Of a stretch of DNA of 63,908 bases, positions 44,220 to 47,143 are shown piece by piece. The stretch comes from an uncultured Clostridia bacterium (GTDB lineage Bacteria > Bacillota > Clostridia > Christensenellales > Aristaeellaceae), in NCBI GenBank assembly GCA_946414315.1, contig CAMKNZ010000013.1, positions 1-63,908 on the forward strand, read 5' to 3'. Below the pieces are notes generated by a model, which was not told the DNA's origin, did no database searches, and saw only the letters and a program-made list of their open reading frames with translations. Position 1 is the first letter of the stretch, and each line of letters starts with the position of its first letter. The translations under genes were made by a program, and so were the position numbers.

Positions 44220-44777
44220 TCATTTTGCTGCAGCGTCCAGTTTTCTCAGGATCCCTCCGGCTTTCAGGGCCGGTACCACAGCATGATAGAAGATCGGTGC
44301 AGCCACGATGGCAGCCCCCGCGTTAATGATCGACGCCGGGAATTTGCTGGCGACCGCTGCCCAGGCATTTCCGGCGATCGCTCCGTAGATCGCGCTCTTG
44401 AGCATATACAGCGCCACATAGGTCAGCGCACCGGCCACACACGCAAGCACAACGCGGATCACGGGCTGTACTTTTTCATTGCGTTTTCCCGCTATGATGC
44501 CGCAGACCCAGGCCATCGCGAACTTCGAAACAAACGTAATCAGCAGATTGATAATTCCTTCGTTGTAGAACGAAAGATCATACAGCGCGGAGCCGAGGCC
44601 CGCGGCCGTTCCGCCCCACACCGGTCCCAGCAGCAGGCCGGACAGCAGGCAGACCGCGTTGGCAAAATGCACCTTGGATCCCAGCAGCGGGAATCTGAAC
44701 AGCGTGACCACAAACACCAGCGCCGCCAGTACAGCGCCGAATACAATCCGCGTCAGCTGAATTTCACTCTTCTTCAT
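44220..44777 (-). CDS. ECF transporter S-component (vitamin uptake, PdxU-like candidate)
   Basis: The 185-residue, six-helix membrane protein fits the ECF S-component family: RIVFGAVLAALVFVVTLFRFP, KVHFANAVCLLSGLLLGPVWGGTAAGLGSALYDL and ITFVSKFAMAWVCGIIAGK. Its start is ATG 44777 with AGGGGAC upstream. It lies divergent from a MocR-family regulator, a pairing known for PdxR-controlled pyridoxine/pyridoxal uptake (PdxU types). The vitamin B6 assignment rests on that context alone. The end abuts the thioesterase stop with no gap. Confidence 0.82.
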   Translation of the reverse strand: MKKSEIQLTRIVFGAVLAALVFVVTLFRFPLLGSKVHFANAVCLLSGLLLGPVWGGTAAGLGSALYDLSFYNEGIINLLITFVSKFAMAWVCGIIAGKRNEKVQPVIRVVLACVAGALTYVALYMLKSAIYGAIAGNAWAAVASKFPASIINAGAAIVAAPIFYHAVVPALKAGGILRKLDAAAK

Positions 44778-44795
44778 CGTCCTGTCCCCTTCATC

Positions 44796-44848
44796 TTTGT
44801 ATCCATTATACAAAATCCATTGACTTTGTATGCGAAGGAGTATATGCT
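44796..44848. promoter_or_regulatory. Divergent promoters with three TTTGTAT boxes
   Basis: TTTGTAT occurs at 44796-44802 and 44825-44831 on the plus strand and at 44808-44814 on the minus strand, the first pair forming TTGTAT-CCATT-ATACAA. The minus-strand promoter for the S-component has TATAAT (44805-44810) within the inverted pair and no recognisable -35. The plus-strand promoter for the regulator is TTGACT (44820-44825), 17 bases, TATGCT (44843-44848), whose -35 meets the third box. The layout suits a MocR-type regulator acting on both genes. Confidence 0.6.
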
Positions 44849-44898
44849 TCATTTGGCTATATGAAAAGTGCCAGAAAGAGAGATTTTTATAAGACCAG

Positions 44899-45969
44899 AT
44901 GAAAAAGAACAAACCTGCCTATCTGACCCTGTATGAATCCCTCCGGGAAGAGATCGTCTCCGGCGTCCGCCCCTTCGGCAGCCGCCTGCCTTCCCGGCGT
45001 GTGCTCGCCCGGGACCGCGGCGTCAGCGCCGTCACGGCGGAACACAGCATCGAACTTCTTTGCGAAGAAGGTTATGCGGAGCCCCGGCCCCGCAGCGGCT
45101 ACTATGTCGTTTACCGGGAGTCCGACGGATTCATCCAGCCCGCCGTCCGCCCGGAGCACCGTTTCCCGCCTGCTTCTCCCACACCGGGCCGGAATGCTTT
45201 CCCCTTTCCCACCCTGGCAAAGATCATGCGCCGGGTTCTTTCGGAATACGGGGAAGAGATCCTGGTCCGGCCGCCGCATCAAGGCTGCAAGGAGCTTCGG
45301 GAAGCGCTCAGCAGCTATCTGGCCCGCAACCGCGGCATCCGCGCCACTCCGGACCAGATCGTGATCGGTGCCGGTGCGGAGTATCTCTACGGCCTTGTGA
45401 CGGAACTGCTGGGTGGCAGCCGGATTTACGGGATCGAAGCGCCGTCCTACCAGAAGATCGAGCAGGTTTATCACTCCCGCGGCGTACAGGTGGATTACTG
45501 CCCCCTGGGCAAGGACGGCATCCTCTCGGAGGCGCTCCGGAACACGTCCGCTTCCGTCCTGCACATTACCCCTTTCCGCAGTTTCCCCAGCGGCGTCACC
45601 GCCACCGCTTCCAAGCGGCGGGAATACCTTCACTGGGCGGACAGCCCGGACCGTTATATTGTCGAGGATGACTATGAGTCGGAGTTTTCCCTGCTGCGCA
45701 AGCCCGAAGAAACGCTCTTTGCCGGTGCGGCCCGCGGAAATGTGATCTATCTGAACACCTTTTCACGCACCGTATCCCCGTCTTTCCGCGTCGGCTATAT
45801 GGTGCTTTCTCCCGCTTTGCTGCCGGTCTTTGAGTCCCGGGTCGGCTTTTACAGCTGCACCGTTCCCGCCTTCGAGCAGTATGTACTCGCGGAGCTGATC
45901 AGCGGCGGGGAATTCGAACGCCATATCAACCGGATCCGGCGCAACGAACGCAAAGGAGCCGAAGTCTGA
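44899..45969 (+). CDS. MocR/PdxR-type regulator, C-terminally short and lacking the PLP lysine
   Basis: The 356-residue protein has a GntR winged helix (about 1-75: LYESLREEIVSGVRPFGSRLPSRRVLA, VSAVTAEHSIELLCEEGY, in two blocks) and a fold-type-I aminotransferase-like domain (VIGAGAEYLYGLV, RYIVEDDYESEF, GNVIYLNTFSRTVSPSFRVGYMV). The Schiff-base lysine of MocR proteins (TFSKxxxPxxRxGY) is Arg290 here (codon CGC at 45766-45768). The TPxHQxPxG motif is also altered, to TPFRSFPSG. It stops after RRNERKGAEV, about 80-100 residues before the family end, and no continuation is seen in other frames. No good ribosome site is visible. It may be ligand-blind, bind another ligand, or be decaying. Confidence 0.85.
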   Translation: MKKNKPAYLTLYESLREEIVSGVRPFGSRLPSRRVLARDRGVSAVTAEHSIELLCEEGYAEPRPRSGYYVVYRESDGFIQPAVRPEHRFPPASPTPGRNAFPFPTLAKIMRRVLSEYGEEILVRPPHQGCKELREALSSYLARNRGIRATPDQIVIGAGAEYLYGLVTELLGGSRIYGIEAPSYQKIEQVYHSRGVQVDYCPLGKDGILSEALRNTSASVLHITPFRSFPSGVTATASKRREYLHWADSPDRYIVEDDYESEFSLLRKPEETLFAGAARGNVIYLNTFSRTVSPSFRVGYMVLSPALLPVFESRVGFYSCTVPAFEQYVLAELISGGEFERHINRIRRNERKGAEV

Positions 45970-45987
45970 TTTTTTCTCAGAAAACGG

Positions 45988-46016
45988 TTGAATGATCTTC
46001 GGTTTTCAGCTACACT
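45988..46016 (+). promoter_or_regulatory. Promoter of uxuA
   Basis: TTGAAT (45988-45993), 17 bases, TACACT (46011-46016), about 35 bases before the ATG. Confidence 0.6.
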
Positions 46017-46057
46017 TTTCACAGTACATCATTCATTGATTCCGGAGGAACAATACT

Positions 46058-47143
46058 ATGCCGATGCAGATGGGTTTCCGCTGGTACGGAGAAGGAAACG
46101 ACAAGATTTCTCTTCAGGACATCCGCCAGATCCCCGGCGTCTCCACCATCGTCTGGGCGCTTCACAACAAAATGCCCGGCGAGATCTGGGAACCGGAGGA
46201 GATCGAGGAAGTCCGCAAACAGATTGAAGCGTACGGTTTCAACATGGATGTGGTGGAATCGGTCAACGTCCATGACGATATCAAGATCGGCCTGCCCACG
46301 CGGGACCGGTATATCGACAACTACATCCAGACCATCCGCAACCTGGCCCCCTTCGGCGTCAAGGTGATCTGTTACAACTTCATGCCCGTGTTCGACTGGA
46401 CCCGGACAGACCTGTTCCACCCCGTCGGCGACGGTTCCACCGCCCTGTTCTATCAGGCGGACCTGATCCAGGACGATCCCAAAGCCATGGCGGATTACAT
46501 CCTGAAAAACCTCAACGGCCTCACCTTCCCCGGCTGGGAGCCGGAACGCATGGCCCGCCTGGACGAGCTCTTTGCCGCCTATAAGGACGTCACCCGGGAA
46601 AAGCTCTGGGAGAATTTCCGTTATTTCCTGGAACGCCTGATGCCGGTCTGCCATGAATGCGATATCAAAATGGCCGTCCATATGGACGATCCGCCCTGGG
46701 ATATTTTCGGCCTGCCCCGCCTGCTGGTGGACGAAGAAAGCATCGCCCGCTTCCTGTCCATGGTGGACGATCCCTGTAACTGCCTGACCCTCTGTTCCGG
46801 CTCCCTGAACGCGAACCCGAAAAACAACGTCGCGGAAATCGTACGGAAGCACTGCGACCGCATCGCCTTCGCCCATATCCGCAACGTCCGCCATTTCCCC
46901 AACGGGGATTTCTGCGAAGCCAGCCACCGGGACTGCGACGGCGATACCGGTATCCTGGAGATCCTCCGCGCTTATCACGACAACGGCTTTGAGGGCTATA
47001 TCCGGCCGGACCACGGCCGCCAGCTCTGGACCGAAACCCCCGGCAACGTGCGCCCGGGTTACGGCCTGTATGACCGCGCGATGGGAATCATGTATATGCT
47101 CGGCGCCTGGGACCTGATGGACCGTCTCGACGGCAGAAAGTAA
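46058..47143 (+). CDS. uxuA: D-mannonate dehydratase
   Basis: UxuA dehydrates D-mannonate to 2-keto-3-deoxygluconate in glucuronate breakdown. The 361-residue length and motifs agree: GFRWYGEGNDKISLQDIRQIPG, IVWALHNKMPGEIW, VVESVNVHDDIKIG, YNFMPVFDWTRTDL, MAVHMDDPPWDIFGLPR, TLCSGSLNANPKNN, FAHIRNVR, and IRPDHGRQLW; His, Cys and Asp residues in these serve as metal ligands or catalysts. GGAGG precedes the ATG by 10 bases. It stands alone; no uxaC, uxuB, kdgK or kdgA is in the window. It would process glucuronate freed by the GH2 enzyme downstream. Confidence 0.95.
   Translation: MPMQMGFRWYGEGNDKISLQDIRQIPGVSTIVWALHNKMPGEIWEPEEIEEVRKQIEAYGFNMDVVESVNVHDDIKIGLPTRDRYIDNYIQTIRNLAPFGVKVICYNFMPVFDWTRTDLFHPVGDGSTALFYQADLIQDDPKAMADYILKNLNGLTFPGWEPERMARLDELFAAYKDVTREKLWENFRYFLERLMPVCHECDIKMAVHMDDPPWDIFGLPRLLVDEESIARFLSMVDDPCNCLTLCSGSLNANPKNNVAEIVRKHCDRIAFAHIRNVRHFPNGDFCEASHRDCDGDTGILEILRAYHDNGFEGYIRPDHGRQLWTETPGNVRPGYGLYDRAMGIMYMLGAWDLMDRLDGRK

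Follow-up and report, generated by a model that had tools for sequence, protein, structure and literature searches.

Can a PdxR-type regulator still respond to vitamin B6 once it has lost both the lysine that holds PLP and a whole domain, or is such a gene decaying? The usual picture of a MocR regulator is a PLP Schiff-base protein whose aminotransferase fold is complete. A gene that departs from this picture on both counts lies in the window, by which we mean the whole stretch of 63,908 nucleotides analysed here (contig CAMKNZ010000013.1 of an uncultured Clostridia bacterium), where it is divergent from a transporter gene:

44220..44777, minus strand: ECF transporter S component (PF07155), putative vitamin B6 importer subunit, PdxU-like (Pfam, gene context)
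44899..45969, plus strand: short PdxR/MocR-type regulator, 356 aa (open reading frame, Pfam, NCBIfam, alignment, predicted model)
45766..45768, plus strand: codon 290, CGC (Arg), at the position of the PLP Schiff-base lysine, GabR K312 (sequence, alignment)

A regulator without the small domain

The window protein keeps two PdxR/MocR features, an N-terminal GntR-type wHTH and a large part of the fold type I aminotransferase-like domain, and is laid out as wHTH (about residues 7–70), linker and aminotransferase large domain, ending in a helix at 338–355. The wHTH, described as apparently intact in an initial annotation of this DNA, is complete (PF00392 positions 2–64 of 64; 36.3 bits, cut-off 27). 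The aminotransferase-like domain (PF00155) matches profile positions 9–269 of 361 only, and the NCBIfam PdxR model NF052282 (348.9 bits, cut-off 320) is matched over positions 1–359 of 448. At 356 aa against a full-length median of 464, the protein is about 100 residues short, in agreement with the earlier estimate of a stop 80–100 residues early. Because just 88 bp separate this stop from the next gene, uxuA at 46058, there is no detached C-terminus behind the regulator.

An AlphaFold model (pLDDT 88.2, pTM 0.79, from a 60-row alignment) ends at the equivalent of residue 377 of the 479-residue GabR chain, and the small C-terminal domain of the MocR fold is missing. The predicted sensor part superposes on those of GabR and PdxR at 1.8–2.2 Å over 264–266 residues; whole-chain superpositions give an rmsd near 25–27 Å, because the wHTH and the sensor part are placed differently with respect to each other.

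The short form is a clade under purifying selection

The initial annotation considered a pseudogene in early decay, and a sequencing error in this genome would have the same appearance: the regulator is shorter than the named family models, and its source genome is a fragmented assembly, 60% complete. When this genome and 60 relatives were searched, however, 31 of 37 genus genomes proved to carry the gene, the source genome among them (E of at most 1e-100); the remaining six are 64–85% complete. Two broader scans were run. A pattern-seeded contig scan yielded 127 relatives, of which the best 80 were retained; one of its six seed peptides is near the short end, a possible bias of that set alone. 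A phylum scan covered 398 genomes drawn evenly from the larger group, with no short-end seeding and up to five candidates scored per genome. Matches at E 1e-40 or better came from 118 of the 398 genomes, and among the candidates scored there were five short proteins, the window's included (open frames of 358–381 aa, 508–577 bits), separated by a gap from the full-length proteins (at least 436 aa, at most 404 bits).

In all, 110 loci yielded 99 distinct short proteins, the window protein included and 11 identical copies left out; another aminotransferase of the same genome (L002) had no match at the cut-off and is outside the 99. Adding L120–L123 gives a short set of 103, and one more short member, L118, stands outside the later counts. 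The other 102 proteins are 44–88% identical to that of the window. The small domain is absent from all 103, which have 1–24 residues beyond position 351, versus 77–111 in 31 full-length relatives. A quick IQ-TREE tree was built from the 134 rows with column 290 and the tail left out, and was rooted on the full-length proteins; it has four flagged long terminal branches, and 40 of its 131 internal branches are weak. A single branch (SH-aLRT 100) separates the short proteins from all 31 full-length ones, and length changes once on this tree.

The initial annotation had proposed a dN/dS comparison, and we ran one (Nei–Gojobori, 28 pairs of eight close relatives), at a median dS of about 1, near saturation. 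Median omega was 0.079 for the whole regulator and 0.074 for the large domain (28 of 28 pairs usable in each), 0.045 for the last helices (24 of 28), 0.081 for the wHTH and 0.272 for the linker (27 usable pairs). Such low values, about 0.08 overall, therefore make a strong case against decay. All 103 proteins of the clade, which come from many assemblies, share this end region. Together with omega and the occurrence in 31 of 37 genus genomes, this led us to reject a pseudogene or sequencing error, a reading to which we give next to no credence.

Neighbouring genes point to vitamin B6

The identification of an ECF vitamin transporter gene opposite the regulator was borne out by Pfam, with a PF07155 match of 75.2 bits (cut-off 26.7); NCBIfam gave a sole match for this protein, to a folate-family model, at 26.2, below its cut-off of 60. 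PF07155 is the Pfam family of PdxU and PdxU2/HmpT, according to PMC9997740. From gene context, the substrate of the S component is presumably a B6 vitamer.

That context was assembled with homology seeds checked by NCBIfam and Pfam, the PdxT seed itself being outside those scans, over flanks of up to 3 kb per locus and about half that for many; representatives scored over cut-off with the NCBIfam equivalog models of pyridoxamine kinase and of PdxS, and with that of YggS. A B6-type gene lies divergently upstream of 66 of the 99 short members: an S component in 45, pyridoxamine kinase in 7, pdxST in 5, kinase with S component in 3, S component with yggS in 3, kinase with yggS in 2 and yggS in 1. 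S-component neighbours were called from a phmmer match (1e-4) with any of seven S seeds, so that not every match need be a B6 transporter. B6-type genes were found downstream in none of the 99, and 33 of the 99 had no recognised B6-type neighbour within flanks of up to 3 kb. The four additional short members L120–L123 have a divergent kinase in two cases and a divergent S component in two, L120 with a kinase-like match downstream as well. Among the 31 full-length relatives, the divergent gene is pdxST in 16, kinase in 1 and an S component in 4, and in L137 an S component lies downstream. The link to vitamin uptake made in the initial annotation thus stands and extends to other B6 genes.

pdxS was found in none of 41 genus genomes, while a control search was positive in 10 of 14 well-known genomes; the bacterium therefore probably depends on imported B6, which suggests auxotrophy as judged on the DXP-independent route to which pdxS belongs.

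The clade may include other functions, as 33 of the 99 members lack a B6 neighbour and 29 of these also lack the upstream element described below. In several short-clade sub-groups (L096, L098, L103, L105, L108, L110; L050, L052, L073) the divergent gene is a citrate synthase or CitMHS-type transporter gene, an annotation checked on L103 and L050 only. These sub-groups are without the element and are possibly changed regulons.

A conserved three-box element overlaps the predicted divergent promoters

The intergenic region holds the following features:

44820..44848, plus strand: predicted regulator promoter, TTGACT-17-TATGCT (sigma-70-like search)
44839..44867, minus strand: predicted S-component promoter, TTTTCA-17-TATACT (sigma-70-like search)
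44852..44898, plus strand: 47-bp three-box element, proposed PdxR operator, abutting the start codon (upstream-region matrix, pattern search)
44852..44862, minus strand: operator box 1, inverted CCAG-type half-site
44865..44874, plus strand: operator box 2, AAAGTGCCAG
44889..44898, plus strand: operator box 3, ATAAGACCAG
44796..44831, no strand: TTTGTAT boxes of the initial annotation, not conserved and not counted in the system

The TTTGTAT boxes had first been noted as possible binding sites of the regulator, and they do occur at 44796–44802, 44808–44814 (inverted) and 44825–44831; the whole window has nine such words against 3.3 expected, a number reached in 1 of 100 shuffles. The claim that each promoter core contains one did not hold, since one box overlaps 44820–44848 and none overlaps 44867–44839. 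Nor are the boxes conserved: in the 200 bp upstream of the 99 short members there are none in 90, one in 7 and three in 2 (the window and L033). With 90 of 99 upstream regions lacking any, an operator role for the TTTGTAT boxes was rejected.

The 47-bp element, made of one inverted and two direct CCAG-type boxes, is the better operator candidate, to which the regulator would bind on the strength of sequence conservation. It scores above 12 bits in 64 of 99 upstream regions versus 0 of 495 mononucleotide shuffles, with an ungapped matrix trained on the same 99 regions, which makes this no independent test. It is present in 60 of the 66 members with a B6 neighbour (6 being without it) versus 4 of the 33 without such a neighbour. 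A 40-base pattern with up to three mismatches was found in 20 of 41 genus genomes, in one copy each and two in G033, while the reversed control pattern was found in 0. On the 31 full-length relatives, the same matrix exceeded 12 bits in 14, of which 11 are beside pdxST. A scan of the window's own genome with ATATWASCCAG gave six scattered sites, none at the regulator locus.

Only two sigma-70-like promoters were predicted in 44760–46070 (0.6 expected), and they face each other with overlapping −10 regions; the S-component promoter overlaps the −10 of the regulator promoter plus operator boxes 1 and 2. With the same geometry and up to 3 of 12 mismatches, the plus promoter recurs at 47 of 64 element-bearing loci versus 18 of 1,280 shuffled sequences, and the minus promoter at 38 of 64 versus 12 of 1,280, although the minus −35 overlaps the 47-bp element and the two conservations are hence not independent. 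A protein bound to the boxes would cover the regulator's own predicted start and touch the divergent −35, as expected of an autorepressor controlling a divergent target.

Around the start codon (44875–44901), which box 3 abuts, a conserved GAGAG/GGAG lies about 16 nt before the start codon. This spacing is far for a usual Shine–Dalgarno sequence, and the layout is common to many relatives.

The element might instead be a structured RNA leader of the regulator mRNA, since its place is after the predicted start and before the start codon, and a hairpin of five pairs between boxes 1 and 2 could form, its pairs being possible in 66–90% of 61 distinct elements. However, pair 5–20 is an A–C mismatch in 14 of the 61, and the strongest mutual information, uncorrected for relatedness, joins 17 and 41, which are like positions of the direct boxes and not pairing ones. 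The second copy in G033 (L180, G033:C122:8000-13000) also lies upstream of an S gene and is not followed by a regulator gene. We consider an RNA leader very improbable. In G033, a pyridoxamine kinase gene lies between this second element and the regulator, and the element is followed by an apparent remnant of the regulator's start; a recent duplication would also explain the second copy.

The Schiff-base lysine is lost repeatedly while much of the pocket is kept

As the initial annotation had recognised, codon 290 (CGC) encodes Arg, which aligns with the Schiff-base lysine of both B. clausii PdxR (7pq9) and GabR, and the TPxHQxPxG motif is altered, to TPFRSFPSG; with Arg290 a Schiff base is impossible, in support of its suggestion that PLP may no longer be bound covalently. 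That annotation had also allowed that relatives might carry a normal lysine and full length. For length they do not, the short form being the clade of 103; for the lysine they are mixed, with R in 56 of the 103, K in 29, Q in 13, L in 2 and I, G and H in 1 each, so that 74 lack it. The 31 full-length relatives have K in 29 and R in 2 (L114 and L148), and the lysine change is thus not confined to the short clade. L114 and L148 keep the small domain; L148 is divergent from pdxST and L114 from an S component.

The fewest K/non-K changes at position 290 that the tree requires is 19, a minimum and not a measured number, with gains back to K possible. Because K occurs here and there in the short clade and in almost every full-length relative, we infer that the domain was cut first and that the lysine changed later and repeatedly. 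In raw counts, a B6 neighbour is present for 11 of 26 members with K and 55 of 73 without; an association between a kept lysine and an absent B6 neighbour was dropped after a comparison of independent pairs on the tree (median p 0.625).

Pocket positions are given in GabR numbering, with contacts from PMC6677901. The ring-nitrogen Asp (D279; D257 in the window protein) is kept in 101 of 103 short members, the window protein included, and in all 74 without the lysine, and the stacking Tyr (Y205; Y184) in 103 of 103. The residue at R319 (R297), which we take to be the phosphate Arg, is also kept in 103 of 103, again including the window protein. Retention of the phosphate Arg and the ring-nitrogen Asp favours a protein that still binds a B6 phosphate, although these residues could be structural instead. 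Besides the lysine, two PLP contacts differ: at the Y281 position 57 members have F, 44 have Y and 2 have V, and HQ of the motif is mostly RS (R in 76, H in 14, N in 10, S in 2 and I in 1 at the His position, followed by Ser in 102 of 103). Trp 106 (30 of 31 full-length relatives) and Tyr 350 (31 of 31) are each found in 0 of 103 short members, losses that would fit packing on the missing small domain.

Constitutive or different-ligand control, as suggested in the initial annotation, keeps some probability, and these alterations bear on two other readings. The regulator may bind no B6 vitamer at all, behaving as a ligand-blind, self-limiting protein in a permanent apo state whose own level sets B6 uptake; the 19 K/non-K changes, the loss of the small domain and the relaxed Y281 and H248 positions are all in keeping with this. 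The pocket should be of no use to a ligand-blind protein, however, and the Asp, phosphate Arg and stacking Tyr are kept in 101, 103 and 103 of 103, with omega at 0.074 in the large domain, and we regard this reading as unlikely. Alternatively, the sensor may now respond to a different ligand: a B6 vitamer without its phosphate, an amino acid, or some other vitamin that the S component carries. The S components of PF07155 are used for more than one vitamin, and clade-typical residues lie in or near the pocket motif (S228 in 102, Y243 in 103, H222 in 103 and R227 in 76 of 103). Against this, the divergent genes other than S components are pdxST, pyridoxamine kinase or yggS, all B6-related, and the phosphate Arg is kept; a changed ligand seems to us rather improbable.

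Proposed mechanism

We lean, with a little over even confidence, towards a functional, shortened and autoregulated PdxR that controls B6 uptake in probable B6 auxotrophs and senses a B6 phosphate without a Schiff base. The computed basis is the short clade, purifying selection, the B6 neighbours, the element and promoters, the repeated lysine change and the kept pocket, from which we infer DNA binding, the direction of regulation, the ligand, its non-covalent mode and the dimer. A regulator dimer would bind the three-box element at 44852–44898 and block its own promoter, the boxes covering the predicted start and the stretch just after it. The divergent S-component gene, with a predicted −35 placed between boxes 1 and 2, would also be controlled, and probably activated, by the dimer. 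The ligand would be a phosphorylated vitamer (PLP, perhaps PNP or PMP) held non-covalently in the large-domain pocket, with Arg297 contacting the phosphate, Asp257 the ring nitrogen and Tyr184 lying against the ring, and with neither a Schiff base nor a small domain to close over it. By analogy, the regulator would be apo at low B6 with the S gene on, and a B6 phosphate, bound without an aldimine, would turn the S gene off.

We give even weight to the broader proposition that, in a widespread clade of PdxR proteins, a sensor that held PLP covalently came to work without a Schiff base through the loss of one domain, regulating B6 genes with the ancestral operator type and the large-domain half of the pocket while the lysine, after the cut, drifted freely. 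If true, MocR-type signalling would be possible without an aldimine. A natural clade without the small domain, in which the lysine has repeatedly changed while operator and B6 neighbours are kept, offers a ready way to test where in the fold the signal resides, and would lead to corrected annotation of B6 regulons in Clostridia of the rumen and gut. A search by titles and the start of abstracts, with subscription papers mostly outside it, found no paper on a short or lysine-less MocR/PdxR clade.

Comparison with known regulators

GabR of Bacillus subtilis (4n0b, 5x03) shares the domain order, and its sensor part superposes at 1.8–1.9 Å over 265 residues. GabR represses its own gene, and the working model here shares with it autorepression and control of a divergent target. 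According to PMC6677901, GabR uses PLP on K312 together with GABA, which the small-domain Arg430 contacts; both residues are missing from the window protein. The same paper describes both the Asp and the Lys as conserved in every one of its MocR clusters, a statement from which the short clade departs as regards the Lys. Streptococcal PdxR, as described in PMC11619246, represses itself, its loss lowers pdxK transcripts without B6 precursors, and the pdxKU transcript is similar with and without precursors; on that account even the streptococcal B6 response is not simple.

The nearest full-length relatives are the PdxRs of related Clostridia (L124–L148), which share divergent pdxST (16 of 25) and, in some, the same element type, but are 434–485 aa long with the small domain present and the lysine in 24 of 25. 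With PdxR itself (MocR subfamily of GntR; B. clausii 7pq9, 7zla) the regulator shares the wHTH, the fold and sequence of the large domain, and divergent B6 genes. The proposed operator likewise has the two direct and one inverted boxes that are frequent in MocR subfamily operators, according to PMC5320631. In contrast to PdxR, the short clade has no small C-terminal domain, lacks the lysine in 74 of 103 members and has mostly TP[YF]RS[FY]P in place of TPxHQxPxG. The regulator is a PdxR descendant that probably works in the same manner, and a derived variant rather than a standard member because the small domain and the lysine, two defining features, are missing.
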